Shown here: positions 6,212 to 29,284 of the stretch, piece after piece
How the letters are laid out: each line of letters starts with the position of its first letter
How positions within the stretch are numbered: position 1 is the stretch's first letter
Assembly: GCF_001294335.1 (NCBI RefSeq)
Contig: NZ_LGKG01000113.1
Coordinates: 57,262-121,261, forward strand
Direction of reading: 5' to 3'
Source: Streptomyces chattanoogensis
GTDB lineage: Bacteria > Actinomycetota > Actinomycetes > Streptomycetales > Streptomycetaceae
DNA: 64,000 bases
Position numbers and translations under genes: made by a program
Notes under the pieces: model-generated
Databases searched by the model: none
Told to the model about the DNA's origin: nothing
Seen by the model: only the letters and a program-made list of their open reading frames with translations

Positions 6212-6766
6212 TCACCCCAGCAGCCCGATGATCTCCTCCGTCGTGCCGGTCTCGCCCAGCCGCGGGAAGATCTTCTCCAGGCTGTTGCGGTGCGCCGCCT
6301 CGTCCAGGTCGGTGACCGCGTCGGTGGCGACGGTGACGTGGTAGCCGTGCTCGTGGGCGGCGCGGGCGCTGGATTCGACGCCGATGCTGGTGGCGATGCC
6401 GGCCAGCACGACCTGGGTGATCCCGCGGCGGCGGAGTTCCAGGTCGAGGCGGGTGCCGTAAAAGGCGCCCCACTGCTGCTTGGTGACGGTGATGTCGGAG
6501 GGCTGCCGGTCGAGTGCGGGGACCAGCTCGGCCCAGTCGGCGGGCGGGGTGAAACCGCCCGGGCCGGATTCGGTGCGGCCCGGTGCGCCGCCGGTGACGT
6601 TCACCAGGACGACGGGCAGCTCGCGGGCGCGGAAGGCGGCGGCCAGGCGTGCGCCGCGCTCGATGACCTCGGCGGACGGTTGCGGGGCGGTAGGCAGGGC
6701 GGCGATGCCCTTCTGCAGGTCGATCAGGACCAGGGCGGTGCGGGCGTCGAGGGTGGTGGCGGGCAC
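6212..6766 (-). CDS. Isochorismatase-fold hydrolase with Gly at the catalytic Cys position
   Basis: The 184-residue alpha/beta hydrolase belongs to the isochorismatase/nicotinamidase-like superfamily. The N-terminal catalytic Asp16 (LVLIDLQKG) and Lys96 (TKQQWG) are present. The third position, normally Cys in amidase members, is Gly129 in GIATSIGVESSARAA. The same Cys-to-Gly change occurs in vinyl-ether-cleaving isochorismatases such as EntB/PhzD, so an amidase or nicotinamidase function is unlikely. The GTG start at 6766 follows an AAGGAG site. It lies 47 bp downstream of the MFS gene on the same strand and is probably the third gene of a MarR-MFS-hydrolase operon. Substrate unknown. Confidence 0.82.
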   Translation of the reverse strand: MPATTLDARTALVLIDLQKGIAALPTAPQPSAEVIERGARLAAAFRARELPVVLVNVTGGAPGRTESGPGGFTPPADWAELVPALDRQPSDITVTKQQWGAFYGTRLDLELRRRGITQVVLAGIATSIGVESSARAAHEHGYHVTVATDAVTDLDEAAHRNSLEKIFPRLGETGTTEEIIGLLG

Positions 6767-6813: not shown

Positions 6814-8277
6814 TCAGTTGGTGGCCGCAGCGGGGCTTCCGGCGCGCAGGGTGCGGTCGGTCAGGGTGAGGGCGAGGAGGAGCGCGCCGAGGCCGAGCCC
6901 GATCGCGGCCATGTGGTGCAGGCCGGGATCGGAGGCGCGCTGTCCGTACAGGACGCCGATGAGGCCGGAGGCCGTGATGGCTCCGAGGTACTGGGCGGTG
7001 CGCTGGAGCCCGGCGGCCGCGCCGACGCCGTCGGCCGGGGCCTGGGCGTAGACGGCGGCCTGGTTGGCGGTGGACGCCAGGCCCTGCGGGATGCCGAGCA
7101 GGGCGCCGGCGCACAGCAGCGCGAGGAGCGGGCTGGTGCCGTGCACGACGAGGAGGACCGCGCTGCCGGCCGCGAGACAGAGCGCGGCGAGGGTCAGTGG
7201 CGCGCGGATCCCTTTCGTACGGGCGCCCGCGATCGAGCAGAAGGCGGCCACGCCGGACATCGGCAGCATGATCAGTCCCGCGTGGAAGGACGAGTAGCCG
7301 TGCACCTGCTCCAGCCACTGGCTGAAGCCGTAGAGCGCGCAGTAGATGACGAGGTAGGTGAGGCCGTGGCGCAGGTAGGTGCGTACCAGCCCGCCGTTGG
7401 CCGCGAGCATGCGGAGGTCGAGAAACGGGGCCGGGTGACGCAGCTGCCACCAGACGAGGACGGCTGCCAGGACGGCAGCGGGGGCGAGCAGGAACCAGCG
7501 GGGATCCGCGAGGTCGTTGAGGAAGAACATCGTGGTGGTGAGCGTGGCCGCGAAGAGGGCGATGCCCAGGGGGTCGAGGGCGCCGGCGCGGGCGGAGTCG
7601 CGGCCGGACCTCTCGTCGCGGGCGGCGTTGGCGTCCCGGGTGGACTTCTCGTCGCGCGGCAGCCACACCAGCGCGAAGACCAGAGCCAGCAGCGCCAGCG
7701 GCACATTGACGGCGAAGACCGCGCGCCAGCCCGCCGTGGCGGCGAGCAGGCCGCCGAGCGTGGGGCCGACGGCGGCGCTCGCCAGCGCGGCGAGCGAGAG
7801 CCGGCCCAGAACGGCGCGGGGCGTGGGCCGGCCGGTCCGCCGCGACTCGGCGCGCAGCATCGCCATCGCGGCGGGGTAGGCGGCCGCCGTGCCGATGCCG
7901 AGCACGACCCGGGAGACGATCAGCAGGGTGAAGACGGGGGCCAGCGCCCCGATCAGCCCCGCCGCGCAGACCATCAGCGCACCGGCGACGAACACCCGCC
8001 GCGGCCCGACGCGGTCGGCGAGCCGCCCCATCGACGGCTGCCCCACCGCGCTGGCCAGATACATCGCGGAGAGCAGCCAGGCGGTGTCGGCGGGCCCGAC
8101 CCGGAAGTCCTGCCCGATGGCCACCAGAGCGGTGGCGATCATCGTGGAGTTGATGGGGTTGAGGAGCGAGCCGAGGAGCAGCGGAGTCATCAGGCGCGCG
8201 CCGAAGGCCCGGTGGGGGACGCCGGCGGGTGTACCGTCCAGGCCGGCGGGCTTCGTCGAACGGCTCGGCGCGCTCAT
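6814..8277 (-). CDS. MFS drug-efflux transporter (DHA2/EmrB-QacA-like)
   Basis: The 487-residue major facilitator protein is predicted to export drugs or metabolites by proton antiport. About 14 hydrophobic helices are visible, as in the DHA2 group. The loop 2-3 motif A (GRLADRVGPRRVF) and motif C-like stretch (RVVLGIGTAAAYPAAMAML) are intact. The hydrophilic stretch ARDERSGRDSARAG (about residues 215-230) is a central cytoplasmic loop. Its ATG overlaps the stop of the upstream marR gene by four bases (ATGA), so translation is coupled. It should be de-repressed together with marR when the effector binds. The exported compound is unknown. Confidence 0.88.
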   Translation of the reverse strand: MSAPSRSTKPAGLDGTPAGVPHRAFGARLMTPLLLGSLLNPINSTMIATALVAIGQDFRVGPADTAWLLSAMYLASAVGQPSMGRLADRVGPRRVFVAGALMVCAAGLIGALAPVFTLLIVSRVVLGIGTAAAYPAAMAMLRAESRRTGRPTPRAVLGRLSLAALASAAVGPTLGGLLAATAGWRAVFAVNVPLALLALVFALVWLPRDEKSTRDANAARDERSGRDSARAGALDPLGIALFAATLTTTMFFLNDLADPRWFLLAPAAVLAAVLVWWQLRHPAPFLDLRMLAANGGLVRTYLRHGLTYLVIYCALYGFSQWLEQVHGYSSFHAGLIMLPMSGVAAFCSIAGARTKGIRAPLTLAALCLAAGSAVLLVVHGTSPLLALLCAGALLGIPQGLASTANQAAVYAQAPADGVGAAAGLQRTAQYLGAITASGLIGVLYGQRASDPGLHHMAAIGLGLGALLLALTLTDRTLRAGSPAAATN

Positions 8278-8875: not shown

Positions 8876-10213
8876 ATGTCGGGAACTCAACTCCGGGATC
8901 CAGTCCAAGAGTTCGCGTACTTCCTGGTCTGCCTCACCCAGCGGCTCAATCCCTCCGCGGGGTGGTACGGCGTCTTCGCCCGGCGCGATCCCGAGGGGCT
9001 GCGGGCGTGCCTGGAGGGGCGGGACGTACCGCCCTGGGACGTGGTGGAGTCCCTGCTGTACGACCTCTCTGAGCTGCCCGGCGAGCATGCGGTGACCACC
9101 GCGAGCGCACGGGCCCGCCAGCTGCACGCGCAGGCGGTGGCCGTCCACGACGCGCGGCCGGGCGGCCGCCCCGCGCTCCAGGAGCGGCTGCAGGTGATGC
9201 TGCGCGAGGAGCGGCGCACCGCATTCCGTGTCCGTGAGCTGGAGGCGGCCCTGGCCGTGGCGGGCCCCCGGGAGGCGGACCGGCAGGCCGAGGACCTGGC
9301 CTGGGCGCGCGACGACCATCTGCGCGCGGGCGCCCGGGTCGGCGAGCTCCGCGCCCGGCTGGAGGCGCTGGGGCGGAACGAGGGCAGGCGCCAGGGGAAG
9401 ATGCGCTCCAGGCGTCGGGCCAAGCCCCCTGCCCGCCCGCGCGGCGCCCGCTTCGCCGGGCTGGAAGTGCCGGAGGAAGTGCCGGAGGAAGAGACGGAGG
9501 AAGAGACGGAGGGTGATACGGAAGCGGAGTGGCAGGTCGAGCCGGCGGCCGAGGAGTACGAGAGCGCCCCGGCTCCCGCACCCGCCGCCCCGCGCGGCGC
9601 CCGCTTCGCCGGAGCGTACGGCCAGGACCCGATGGGCGACGTCGAGCCGGCGGACGGCCGCGCCCACCCCGCGCCGGCCCCGGCCGTCGCCGAGGCCCGC
9701 CGCGCCGCCGCCACCGCCGTCGCCCGTCTGGCCCACCTCCGCGCCACCACCGACGGCGGCCTCGTGTACGCCGAACTCTGCGCCGCCGCCAGCCGTCCCG
9801 CACAGGAACTCCCCTTCCTCATCGAGGAGTTGGAGCGCGCCGGACTCGCCTCCGACGTCCCCACCCTGCTCTGGGAAGCGGCCTGCCTGCCGCCCGCGGG
9901 GCTCGCCGCGGCGGCCGATGCGCTGGCCGCCGCGGGCCGTACGGAGGACGGCATCCAGCTGCTGCGGCAGTGCGTGTCCCGCCCCGTCGGCGAGGTGGCG
10001 CAGGCCGCGCTGGCGCTGCTCGAGCGGGACCGCACCGCGCAGGCGCTGGAGCTGCTGGCCGCGCTCGTGCGGTCCCGTACGCCGGACGAGGCCGCCGCGG
10101 CGGAGGCCGTGGCGCCGGACACCCTCGGCCCACTGCTGCTGGCGGCCGCCGAACGCGTCTCCCCGCACCGGCACAGCGATATCGCCCATGCCCTCCGCGT
10201 CGCCCACCGCTGA
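8876..10213 (+). CDS. Unknown protein with acidic linker and helical repeat C-terminus
   Basis: The 445-residue protein has no domain I can name. Residues 1-90 are compact (VQEFAYFLVCLTQRLNP, WYGVFARRDPEGL, PWDVVESLLYDLSEL). Residues 90-180 are rich in Arg/Glu/Leu heptad-like sequence suggesting a coiled coil. A linker carries tandem VPEE/ETEE repeats and is flanked by two copies of RGARFAG. The C-terminal 160 residues are Ala/Leu helices in pairs (IEELERAG, ALEEWEAACLPP-like), resembling helical repeats. The ATG at 8876 follows GAGGGGGAG. It is divergent from marR across the palindrome at 8725. It is probably cytoplasmic, since no signal or membrane helix is seen. Confidence 0.72.
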   Translation: MSGTQLRDPVQEFAYFLVCLTQRLNPSAGWYGVFARRDPEGLRACLEGRDVPPWDVVESLLYDLSELPGEHAVTTASARARQLHAQAVAVHDARPGGRPALQERLQVMLREERRTAFRVRELEAALAVAGPREADRQAEDLAWARDDHLRAGARVGELRARLEALGRNEGRRQGKMRSRRRAKPPARPRGARFAGLEVPEEVPEEETEEETEGDTEAEWQVEPAAEEYESAPAPAPAAPRGARFAGAYGQDPMGDVEPADGRAHPAPAPAVAEARRAAATAVARLAHLRATTDGGLVYAELCAAASRPAQELPFLIEELERAGLASDVPTLLWEAACLPPAGLAAAADALAAAGRTEDGIQLLRQCVSRPVGEVAQAALALLERDRTAQALELLAALVRSRTPDEAAAAEAVAPDTLGPLLLAAAERVSPHRHSDIAHALRVAHR

Positions 10214-10350
10214 GCGCTCCGTGGACGCGCCGCGCTGAGAGATGGTCTTGCCACCGTGCGTGACGGGGCTTACGGTCACCTCCACACGCGTAGATCGCGG
10301 CGCAGATCCCGCGTGGGCTGCAGGCTGACGCATCGACAAAGGAGCAGCTC

Positions 10351-11193
10351 ATGGCCGATGTTGTGCGTGCCGCACTGGTCCAGGCGACCTGGACCGGCGA
10401 CACCGAATCGATGATCGCGAAGCATGAGGAGCACGCCAGAGCGGCGGCCGCCCAGGGCGCGAAGATCATCGGCTTCCAAGAGGTCTTCAACGCCCCGTAC
10501 TTCTGCCAGGTCCAGGAGCCGGAGCACTACCGCTGGGCCGAGTCCGCGCCCGACGGCCCGACCGTACGCCGGATGCAGGCGCTCGCCCGCGAGACCGGCA
10601 TGGTCATCGTCGTCCCGATCTTCGAGATCGAGCAGTCCGGCTTCTACTACAACACCGCGGTCGTCATCGACGCCGACGGCTCCCTCCTGGGCATCTACCG
10701 CAAGCACCACATCCCGCAGGTCAAGGGCTTCTGGGAGAAGTACTACTTCAAGCCGGGGAACATGGGCTGGCCGGTCTTCGACACGGCCGTCGGGAAGGTC
10801 GGCGTCTACATCTGCTACGACCGCCACTTCCCCGAAGGCTGGCGGCAGCTCGGTCTCAACGGCGCCCAGCTGGTCTACAACCCCTCCGCCACCTCCCGCG
10901 GCCTGTCCGGCTACCTCTGGCAGCTGGAGCAGCCCGCGGCCGCCGTCGCCAACGAGTACTTCATCGCGGCGATCAACCGCGTCGGGGTGGAGGAGTACGG
11001 CGACAACGACTTCTACGGGACCAGCTACTTCGTCGACCCGCGCGGTCAGTTCGTCGGCGAGGTCGCCAGCGACAAGGAGGAGGAACTCGTCGTCCGCGAC
11101 CTCGACTTCGGGCTGATCGACGAGGTCCGGCAGCAGTGGGCGTTCTACCGGGACCGCCGCCCCGACGCGTACGGGGGGCTGGTGCAGCCGTGA
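10351..11193 (+). CDS. pydC: Beta-ureidopropionase-like carbon-nitrogen hydrolase (nitrilase superfamily)
   Basis: The 280-residue enzyme is predicted to hydrolyse N-carbamoyl-beta-alanine (or N-carbamoyl-beta-aminoisobutyrate) to the beta-amino acid, CO2 and NH3, the last ring-derived step of reductive pyrimidine breakdown. The nitrilase Glu-Lys-Cys triad is present: Glu44 (FQEVFNAPYF), Lys118 (YRKHHIP) and Cys155 (YICYDRHFPE). FNAPYF and KHHIP are characteristic of carbamoylases rather than true nitrilases. The ATG at 10351 follows AAGGAG. It overlaps the aminotransferase gene by four bases and sits upstream of dihydropyrimidinase and an NCS1 permease, which fixes the pathway. An N-carbamoylputrescine amidase is the main alternative. 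Confidence 0.85.
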   Translation: MADVVRAALVQATWTGDTESMIAKHEEHARAAAAQGAKIIGFQEVFNAPYFCQVQEPEHYRWAESAPDGPTVRRMQALARETGMVIVVPIFEIEQSGFYYNTAVVIDADGSLLGIYRKHHIPQVKGFWEKYYFKPGNMGWPVFDTAVGKVGVYICYDRHFPEGWRQLGLNGAQLVYNPSATSRGLSGYLWQLEQPAAAVANEYFIAAINRVGVEEYGDNDFYGTSYFVDPRGQFVGEVASDKEEELVVRDLDFGLIDEVRQQWAFYRDRRPDAYGGLVQP

Positions 11194-27926: not shown

Positions 27927-28301
27927 TCAGCGGTCCTCGCAGGCAAGTGTCAGGCACAGCATCAGCGGCTCGTAGGGAGTGCTGTCGCTCTGCGCGGTGG
28001 ACGTCTTCTCGGAGTCGGCCACGAACCGCCACTGCGACGGCTGGGCGTGCGTGGTCTCTCCCTTCTTCTCCACCTCGACGTGGAGCGTGCGGGCCTGCGG
28101 ATCGTTCGTCTCGACGAGCACTTCGTCGCTGTCGACCGAGAAGTGGTCGTGTAACAGGACCAGGCCGAACCGGTCCAGGTTTCCGTGCTTCTCCAGCACG
28201 GCCTTGATTTCCCGGGCGAACTCCGCGTCCTGCGGGCCGAGCGGTTCTGCGTCTTCGAAGCGAGGAAGGCTGTGCGATGCGCGGCTGGTCTGCGTAGGCA
28301 T
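27927..28301 (-). CDS. Small conserved protein of unknown function
   Basis: The 124-residue soluble, acidic protein has no signal or membrane helix. Features seen are FAREIKAVLEKHGNLDRFGLVLLHDHF, DEVLVETNDPQARTLHVEVEKK and a C-terminal LMLCLTLACEDR. The second ATG (28301) is chosen over 28307 because the GGGAG Shine-Dalgarno touches the first ATG and is six bases from the second. It converges with the FAD gene and is divergent from the riboswitch-thioesterase unit. No family recognised. Confidence 0.65.
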   Translation of the reverse strand: MPTQTSRASHSLPRFEDAEPLGPQDAEFAREIKAVLEKHGNLDRFGLVLLHDHFSVDSDEVLVETNDPQARTLHVEVEKKGETTHAQPSQWRFVADSEKTSTAQSDSTPYEPLMLCLTLACEDR

Positions 28302-28470
28302 GAGCATCTCCCTTCGACCGCGCTCTGCGGTCTCAAGTAACCATAGGCCAATGGTGAGTTGGGGCAGAAGTGCCCGAAGGGGACGGGGGGGCCTTGTGCG
28401 GGCGTATCCCTTCGGGGCGAGTGGGGCACTCGGGGCACATCCCGCGAGGCCGTGCCCTCGTTGCGGTTAC

Positions 28471-28690
28471 CCTGGCGCTGCAGCTGGTTCACCCCGTCAG
28501 CCAGACGGGCGTGTCGTAAGAGGGAACCCGGTGGGAATCCGGGACTGCCCCGCAGCGGTGAGCGGGAACGACCGCCGTCATACGCACTGGGCCCACGCTC
28601 GAGCCCGGGAAGCGACGGCCAGTAGATGCCTCGCACGTACGACTCGTTCGTACGCGAGGCGTGCCCGCGAGTCCGAAGACCTGCCGCTGC
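28471..28690 (+). ncRNA. Cobalamin (adenosylcobalamin) riboswitch
   Basis: The conserved core is read directly. GGGAACCCGGTGGGAATCC (28522-28540), then ACTGCCCCGCAGCGGTGAG, CACTGGGCCC, and the B12 box GGGAAGCGACGGCCAGTAG (28607-28625) appear in order. A peripheral stem follows (GCCTCGC...GCGAGGC, 28628-28660), and the closing segment GCGAGTCCGAAGACCTGCC is at 28667-28685. Order and spacing match actinobacterial cobalamin riboswitches. A TANNNT -10 (TACCCT, 28468-28473) lies just before the 5' edge. The expression platform appears to be the hairpin at 28778-28822. The only downstream gene is a hotdog thioesterase rather than a B12 transport or synthesis gene. Confidence 0.92.
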
Positions 28691-28749
28691 CCGTACGCCA
28701 CGGGCGTGCGGTGATCCCGGCGGCTCGACGGAGACCGGCCGGCGGCTCC

Positions 28750-28766
28750 GGGCACGCGGCGTGCCC
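28750..28766 (+). promoter_or_regulatory. GC hairpin in the riboswitch leader
   Basis: GGGCACG and CGTGCCC pair perfectly across three bases between the aptamer and the Shine-Dalgarno hairpin. No T-run follows, so it is more likely a structural spacer than a terminator. Confidence 0.45.
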
Positions 28767-28777
28767 CTCCGCCGTCG

Positions 28778-28822
28778 TCTCCTTCGCGCCCCGGGCCTGC
28801 CTGCCGCGACTCGCGAAGGAGA
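28778..28822 (+). promoter_or_regulatory. Shine-Dalgarno-sequestering hairpin (riboswitch expression platform)
   Basis: TCTCCTTCGCG (28778-28788) is the exact complement of CGCGAAGGAGA (28812-28822), which contains the AAGGAG ribosome site of the gene starting at 28829. The 11-bp stem with a 23-base loop would shut off translation when formed. This fits a translational cobalamin riboswitch switching the gene off when B12 is bound. Confidence 0.75.
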
Positions 28823-28828
28823 GTTGAC

Positions 28829-29284
28829 GTGGCCGACCGAACCGTCGCGCTGAACTCCGCTGCCAAGAAAACCCCGGCCGATTCCCGGGTCACGCTCGCG
28901 CACATCATGAGCGAGCACGACACCAACCTCTACGGCACCATCCACGGTGGCGTCGTGATGAAGCTCATCGACGACGCCGCTGCGGCCGCCGCCGGGCGCC
29001 ACGCCGATGGCCCGGCCGTGACCGTCTCCGTCGACCGGATGACCTTTCTCGCCCCGGTGCGCGCCGGGGACCTGCTCAGCGTGCACGCCACACTCGAACG
29101 CGCCGGCCGGACATCGATGACAGTGGCGGCGCGCGTCACCGCCGAACGCTGGAACGCCGCCGGGCCCGTCGCCGAGGTGGCCACCGGCCGGCTCACCTTC
29201 GTCGCGATCGATGCCGAAGGCGCGCCGCGCCCGGTTCCTGCTCTCGACGACGGGACGAACGCGAGCGGAGACCCACTCGCCTAG
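28829..29284 (+). CDS. Hotdog-fold acyl-CoA thioesterase (YciA/BFIT-like) under riboswitch control
   Basis: The 151-residue single hotdog domain is predicted to hydrolyse acyl-CoA to free acid and CoA in the cytoplasm. The signature is HIMSEHDTNLYGTIHGGVVMKLIDDAAAAAA split across residues 25-55, where the GTIHGG turn and the Asp two helical turns later form the active site. VTVSVDRMTFLAPVRAGDLL is the central strand region. The GTG at 28829 follows AAGGAG by seven bases. This site is paired within the leader hairpin, so expression is expected to rise when cobalamin is scarce. No gene follows on the same strand; a LysR gene converges. The substrate acyl group is unknown. Confidence 0.85.
   Translation: MADRTVALNSAAKKTPADSRVTLAHIMSEHDTNLYGTIHGGVVMKLIDDAAAAAAGRHADGPAVTVSVDRMTFLAPVRAGDLLSVHATLERAGRTSMTVAARVTAERWNAAGPVAEVATGRLTFVAIDAEGAPRPVPALDDGTNASGDPLA

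Follow-up and report, generated by a model that had tools for sequence, protein, structure and literature searches.

A cobalamin riboswitch conserved upstream of an acyl-CoA thioesterase gene: a probable link to B12 shortage in Streptomyces

Why should a cobalamin riboswitch stand before the gene of an acyl-CoA thioesterase? The targets named for this riboswitch class in the part of PMC3766115 used here, whose actinobacterial groups are Corynebacteriaceae and Mycobacteriaceae, are genes for B12 synthesis, for transport of B12 or its precursors, for cobalt transport and for isozymes of B12-dependent enzymes. In Streptomyces lividans TK24, two cobalamin riboswitches precede cobalt transport and cob genes (PMC8079986, in excerpt). 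A thioesterase falls outside the categories given in that part of PMC3766115, being no B12 gene, no transporter and no isozyme of a B12-dependent enzyme.

The question arises from a 64,000-nucleotide stretch of Streptomyces chattanoogensis DNA (the window; contig NZ_LGKG01000113.1, positions 57,262 to 121,261). A first-pass annotation, made from the letters alone, proposed that a riboswitch with a helix over the Shine-Dalgarno (SD) sequence controls a thioesterase (TE), which would free CoA when B12 is scarce. Here we follow up this proposal by comparing genomes. We favour, at a probability of roughly 0.6, the reading that TE is a B12-repressed thioesterase belonging to a B12-shortage response, in which it would hydrolyse acyl-CoAs lying behind stalled B12-dependent mutases.

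The aptamer is complete. Rfam's own covariance model, used for every RF00174 search reported here, matches positions 28467-28702 of the forward strand over its full length (model 1-189 of 189) with 88.2 bits and an E-value of 2e-20. The gathering threshold is 31.5 bits, and this is the sole gathering-level Rfam match in the window; the covariance-model search thus bears out the riboswitch that had been recognized by eye. All four core motifs lie where the first-pass annotation placed them: on the forward strand the P5/L5 motif GGTGGGAATCC at 28530-28540, then CACTGGG at 28585-28591 and GCGACGGCCAGTAG at 28612-28625, both read from the sequence, and on the forward strand the 3' core CGAAGACCTGCC at 28674-28685, which we take to be the B12 box. 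The first and last of these are supported by the sequence, by Rfam and by an alignment with 25 other aptamers.

The window aptamer scores best of the seven RF00174 matches in the genome. The other six stand before metE, a NicO transporter gene, cobD, the gene for the large chain of ribonucleotide reductase, cobN and a gene for a prenyltransferase-toroid-like protein; the B12 regulon of this genome is ordinary apart from one unusual member, TE. The match before the prenyltransferase-toroid-like gene (L007:1-1622) lies just above the cut-off at 32.0 bits, and the N-terminus of that protein looks signal-like. Assigning the window aptamer to a TE or a metE type by sequence was uninformative, the core being 86.8% identical to the nearest TE aptamer and 86.2% to the genome's own metE aptamer.

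Does the pairing of riboswitch and thioesterase recur? A protein-based search of genome contigs yielded 45 related TE loci in 44 genomes, two of them (L025 and L026) from strain ERV7; flanks are shortened in four loci. RF00174 lies upstream of TE in 41 of the 45. It precedes TE directly in 35 (L008-L025, L027-L030, L032, L035, L037-L039, L041-L043, L045 and L048-L051), among which we count L050, whose aptamer has its 5' half replaced and still scores 43.2 bits, and it lies upstream of metE followed by TE in six (L031, L033, L034, L036, L044 and L052). The four loci without a gathering-level riboswitch are L026, where it is 5'-truncated, L040, which carries a metE fragment, L046 and L047. TE proteins in the direct arrangement are 71-89% identical.

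As a contrast we read 30 loci of a paralogue, 51-61% identical, with 1.5 kb on each side; the window genome has a paralogue of its own, G000:C124, at 56% identity. None of the 30 loci has RF00174 within that 1.5 kb; any riboswitch further upstream would escape this reading. We also built a maximum-likelihood tree of 74 rows, leaving out L051 and L052 as short matches; bootstrap values were unsettled and some branches long. In it the TE clade (44 rows) splits from the 30 paralogues at 100/99. L046 and L047, first labelled with the paralogues for want of a riboswitch, fall inside the TE clade, and the direct arrangement is spread over the TE tree. The synteny that the first-pass annotation proposed to look for is therefore recurrent, and the case it named against itself, that a true B12 gene was recently deleted and TE thereby landed here, is at odds with a direct arrangement in 35 of 45 loci across the tree. 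Some lineages may have lost metE long ago, or the reverse may have happened.

The gene is nonetheless rare. At E <= 1e-52, TE occurs in 13 of 295 genomes of the genus, the window's included, so most streptomycetes manage without it; S. lavendulae and S. cinnamoneus are among the streptomycetes that carry it. Nine of the 13 non-window TE loci of this draw have a riboswitch within 1.5 kb. On longer reading, L101 and L102 have the order riboswitch-metE-TE; L099 is a second TE copy in genome G397, and in L089/L100 the aptamer is 5'-truncated. The draw and the 45-locus set are not independent, since at least two genomes are shared (L101 with L031, and L102 with L033). The pair also occurs outside the genus, in Saccharomonospora sp. 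NB11 (L019:4736-5417, TE 80% identical), which suggests horizontal transfer as a cassette.

Some loci show local rearrangement. In L026:4480-4780, L050:4650-4934 and L100:3600-4070 the aptamer has kept its 3' half and lost or replaced its 5' half, and the SD hairpin is retained; such 5' truncation of TE aptamers is recurrent, with an assembly artefact possible for L026 of ERV7. The two TE copies of ERV7 (L025 and L026) lie on two contigs and are identical from the aptamer's 3' end (4764) to 5425. G397 likewise has two copies, L094 and L099.

How might the aptamer act on TE? Its end lies 126 nt before the start codon, and the SD sequence AAGGAG occupies 28816-28821 on the forward strand. The 11-bp perfect helix of the first-pass annotation (28778-28788 with 28812-28822) exists in the sequence and spans AAGGAG, and an SD-covering complement of at least 11 nt arises in 6 of 20,000 dinucleotide shuffles of 28703-28806. 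This much of the claim stands; the minimum-energy fold, on the other hand, lacks the helix. It contains instead a competing hairpin of the expression platform (28716-28797, forward strand, ends approximate, a prediction only) and a local SD hairpin (28807-28826, forward strand; 28807-28812 with 28821-28826, loop GCGAAGGA). In the competing hairpin GGAGAC at 28730-28735 is predicted to pair with GUCUCC at 28777-28782, occupying the 5' arm of the 11-bp helix. That arm, the anti-SD arm (28778-28788, forward strand), is supported by the sequence, the shuffles and other leaders.

The minimum-energy fold is predicted at -82.5 kcal/mol and the fold with the 11-bp helix forced at -81.1, a gap of 1.4; in the whole-leader ensemble the predicted probability is about 0.2 for the helix and about 0.3-0.6 for the local SD hairpin. 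Two near-isoenergetic folds are thus predicted, a bistability that suits a switch. The overall fold energy of the leader is ordinary against shuffles (z -0.87). We found no terminator-like site in 28300-28850, which fits translational control.

The leaders of related genes speak to both elements. We counted anti-SD sequences in 43 leaders with an RBS motif, leaving out L036, L045 and L052, which lack it, and called a leader long if at least 113 nt separate the aptamer's GAAGACCTG from the RBS motif. Of the 20 long leaders, 15 contain an exact anti-SD of 7-11 nt; none of the 23 short ones does, and these give less sequence to search. Among the long leaders it is found in all seven of metE, the genome's own included, and in 8 of 13 of TE (L025 and L026 being twins). 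The RBS sequence CTCGCGAAGGAG is common to TE and metE leaders, including the metE leader of the same genome. L036 and L052 keep the stem of the local SD hairpin with a different loop; L045 has neither RBS motif nor hairpin.

The local SD hairpin is the more general of the two. Over 26 distinct leaders 89.1% of its cells are paired, as against 81.7 +/- 1.7 in shuffled controls, none of 500 reaching the observed value. Both-side changes occur in twelve cells (1 of 500 shuffles) and the covariation score is 0.228 (1 of 500), while two measures are ordinary: three pairs changed on both sides (192 of 500) and seven further pair types (99 of 500). When the register is shifted, pairing drops to 24-60%; a slide of +3 gives 13 both-side changes, though with 26.3% of cells paired. 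The motif by which rows were picked fixes most inner pairs, so the covariation evidence comes from the outer three, and these fail in 8, 3 and 4 of the 26 rows. The alignment thus indicates an SD enclosed in a short hairpin with some covariation. Across relatives, then, the proposal that a platform masks the SD survives, with the short local hairpin in place of the 11-bp helix as its general form.

A candidate anti-masking pair between RBS-side GACTCGCG and aptamer CGCGAGTC was rejected: its 8 nt are perfect in the window, L010 and L030 break it without compensation, and L036 and L052 alter the RBS side. By eye, a motif near GACCTCGAGGGCGGGTCGGCGGC recurs in the long leaders of L012, L028, L041-L043, L045 and L048, where it lies between the aptamer and the anti-SD.

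Could the riboswitch be vestigial here, leaving TE effectively constitutive or silent? The 5'-truncated aptamers before TE in L026, L050 and L100 and the ordinary fold energy of the leader would be in keeping with decay. But the window's aptamer is complete and the highest-scoring of the genome's seven, and the rarity of an SD complement of 11 nt or more among shuffles points the same way; we regard this explanation as very improbable. The leader resembles the actinobacterial metE-type AdoCbl riboswitch of RF00174 in its full aptamer, its SD-masking platform (here predicted) and its RBS CTCGCGAAGGAG, and the shared logic fits repression of B12-independent functions.

The genes around TE bear on the response to which it belongs. 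Of the 45 loci, 9 have metE within about 5 kb of TE (L040 as a fragment), 7 have the isocitrate lyase gene aceA there and 16 have one or the other. Within about 1.5 kb, metE, aceA, scfR or 3HCDH accompanies 15 of the 45 TE loci and 0 of the 30 paralogue loci. The window's own TE does not adjoin metE or aceA: upstream is a gene in the opposite orientation with no Pfam match (27927-28307), and downstream are a LysR regulator and a DHDPS-family gene.

We extended the reading in each of the seven aceA-bearing genomes, by one stretch in five of them and by two each in ERV7 (G213) and G230. Four carry a contiguous island of the order riboswitch-TE / scfR(-) / aceA / aceB / 3HCDH / metE (L011 with L104, L013 with L105, L023 with L103 and L050 with L108), and in all four a riboswitch core motif precedes metE as well as TE. 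In L023 the metE-side element is also an RF00174 match (10185-10381, cut by the end of the stretch) and aceB is matched in part; the L050 island has the 5'-truncated aptamer on its TE side. G215 (strain PR69) has a metE remnant after the island cluster, with no riboswitch core motif; it covers residues 27-97 only and follows aceB-3HCDH (L106:2333-2545). In G230 and ERV7 the stretches read show no metE close to the cluster. About 6 kb from TE, ERV7 has genes for methylmalonyl-CoA mutase and for its chaperone MeaB. Just behind TE in L093:2138-2843 are fragments of isocitrate lyase and malate synthase, which look like a decayed glyoxylate island.

Is TE then simply a passenger of metE, which kept the riboswitch after metE was lost and has little link to B12? 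The order riboswitch-metE-TE in six of 45 loci would agree with such a history, as would the window's long anti-SD leader, which resembles metE leaders (an anti-SD in all seven long leaders of metE and in 8 of the 13 of TE). Against it, L032 and L048 have the order riboswitch-TE-riboswitch-metE, each gene with a separate riboswitch side by side, and the same holds at both ends of the four islands; the direct arrangement also persists across the TE tree at 71-89% protein identity. We consider the passenger history improbable. Because the riboswitch-TE synteny is conserved and its neighbours include metE and the glyoxylate bypass, TE is better placed in the gene set of the B12-shortage response, as the first-pass annotation supposed; and since the pair recurs often beside genes that replace B12-dependent pathways, TE is probably switched on when B12 is short.

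What does the enzyme do? TE (28829-29284, forward strand, 151 aa, GTG start) matches PF03061, the 4HBT hotdog family, with 76.1 bits against a gathering threshold of 20.6, so that the call of a hotdog thioesterase downstream of the riboswitch holds. Its closest solved relative by sequence is the cytosolic acyl-CoA thioester hydrolase 4zv3 (E 1.3e-27), presumably of the ACOT7 type, a broad hotdog family. HI0827 (3bjk), the YciA of H. influenzae, also matches (E 4.9e-12). TE thus shares the 4HBT family with the YciA and ACOT7/BACH acyl-CoA hydrolases, but differs from them in its native riboswitch and in falling below the YciA equivalog cut-off: at 62.4 bits against 162 (NF007970, NCBIfam), it is not YciA.

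Asn33 is present in 100% of 42 clade rows and of 30 paralogue rows, and Asp48 in 100% and 97%, respectively; we take them to be the catalytic Asn/Asp pair of a hotdog thioesterase. Positions conserved at 95-100% in TE and different in the paralogue include V21, A24, S28, Y35, I47, A52, A59 and V68, and further A79, L83 and L139; TE always has H30, a position that varies in the paralogue. A substrate range separate from the paralogue's is plausible on these grounds. D44 of YciA is named as a catalytic residue in the consulted part of PMC10560148, and from the collinear match we judge that D48 of TE corresponds to it.

Would such an enzyme find its presumed substrates in these cells? The window genome has ccr with an adjoining mutase homologue (G000:C177) and five MM_CoA_mutase matches in all. 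All 61 genomes searched for ccr have it: 42 that came in through TE loci, the window's own and 18 TE-less members of the genus. Mutases occur in all 25 genomes searched for them, of which 18 came in through TE loci and 6 lack TE, the window's being the other. The steps presumed to stall therefore exist everywhere examined, yet are no marker of TE carriers. Isocitrate lyase is somewhat commoner with TE (21 of 43 carriers against 6 of 18 others). We set aside co-occurrence with either gene as support, these figures not being discriminating.

Experiments in methylotrophs, cited here from excerpts, give the closest parallel. Cobalt limitation of Methylobacterium increased methylmalonyl-CoA by a factor of more than 35 and ethylmalonyl-CoA by one of more than 6, and growth was restored in part by isocitrate lyase (PMC2773004). 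Heterologous YciA releases acids of the ethylmalonyl-CoA pathway, with a yield six-fold higher at low cobalt (PMC9529712, citing earlier work). The products were methylsuccinate and mesaconate, the other pathway esters giving none above the quantification limit in the part of PMC10560148 used here. This selectivity means that methylmalonyl-CoA and ethylmalonyl-CoA may not be the substrates of TE. As in Methylorubrum extorquens carrying YciA (PMC10560148, PMC9529712), a hotdog thioesterase would act here on the CoA esters of a cobalt-starved pathway; unlike that artificial construct in an alphaproteobacterium, TE is a native gene with a leader predicted to sense B12.

TE might also belong to the B12-shortage regulon and act elsewhere than on the mutases' own substrates: by tuning acetyl-CoA, 3-hydroxybutyryl-CoA or crotonyl-CoA, or general CoA recycling, in the shift to the glyoxylate bypass, or by limiting polyketide extender units. 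Its neighbours aceA, aceB and 3-hydroxyacyl-CoA dehydrogenase and the breadth of the ACOT7-type family are compatible with such roles, and YciA in crude extracts was active on 3-hydroxybutyryl-CoA and methylsuccinyl-CoA (PMC10560148, in excerpt). But 29 of the 45 TE loci (four of the 45 with shortened flanks) have neither metE nor aceA within about 5 kb of TE. Among the 43 genomes with TE, 22 lack an isocitrate lyase match. A role confined to the bypass is therefore unlikely. We rate action elsewhere as a whole as rather unlikely.

The likeliest role is the unloading of acyl-CoAs backed up behind B12-dependent mutases. We infer it from a neighbourhood that natively joins a leader predicted to sense B12 to a hotdog thioesterase, and in some lineages to isocitrate lyase as well, and it fits the cobalt-limitation data excerpted from PMC2773004. 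What sequence comparison shows is the riboswitch and its conserved position ahead of TE, together with the SD hairpin, the neighbours and the mutase genes. Given ample adenosylcobalamin, the aptamer would bind it and the leader would settle in a fold in which the local SD hairpin masks the SD of TE, keeping translation low; in long leaders, the window's included, the 11-bp anti-SD helix would mask it as well. When B12 runs short, the SD would become accessible and TE would be made along with MetE and, in lineages that have it, the glyoxylate bypass. The enzyme would then hydrolyse short, branched or dicarboxylic acyl-CoAs upstream of the stalled mutases, candidates being ethylmalonyl-CoA, methylmalonyl-CoA or neighbouring acyl-CoAs of the ethylmalonyl-CoA and propionate routes, which would free CoA and let the acid leave the cell. 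More tentative, and to our minds somewhat short of an even bet, is the fuller picture of a natural B12-sensing relief valve, in which the riboswitch does not replace a B12 enzyme but turns on a dedicated thioesterase that unloads CoA from stalled mutase substrates; it would sit in compact islands with metE and the bypass in some lineages and pass between lineages as a riboswitch-TE cassette, as in Saccharomonospora NB11.

Control of acyl-CoA metabolism by this riboswitch class has a precedent. In S. griseus a cobalamin riboswitch precedes the gene for methylmalonate-semialdehyde dehydrogenase, and premature transcription termination is reported (PMC8914203, in excerpt). There too a Streptomyces cobalamin riboswitch stands before a gene of acyl-CoA metabolism (valine to propionyl-CoA), not of B12 metabolism; the gene and enzyme are different, and termination there stands against the lack of a terminator-like site here. 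A search of the open-access literature found no link between riboswitch and thioesterase, and subscription journals or supplements may hold earlier reports. As far as the open-access literature shows, TE appears from its synteny to be a conserved, new target of a known riboswitch class.

If the main reading is true, cobalamin riboswitches would govern a third response, the clearing of CoA esters behind halted mutases, besides B12 supply and B12-independent isozymes. Acyl-CoA build-up occurs in B12 deficiency, and the system would offer a bacterial, genetically testable counterpart. It would also give a defined role to an orphan hotdog enzyme. Methylmalonyl- and ethylmalonyl-CoA are polyketide building blocks in streptomycetes, where a native pair of regulator and enzyme would be of use.

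Three further loci have unusual surroundings. In L045:4691-4980 the aptamer is complete (68.7 bits) and TE apparently starts much further downstream. Behind the riboswitch-metE-TE array of L031 are two weak RF00174 matches of 34.9 and 40.1 bits on opposite strands (7001-7309). Downstream of TE in L041, at 6257-6431, lies an M-box (magnesium) riboswitch that scores 133.7 bits.
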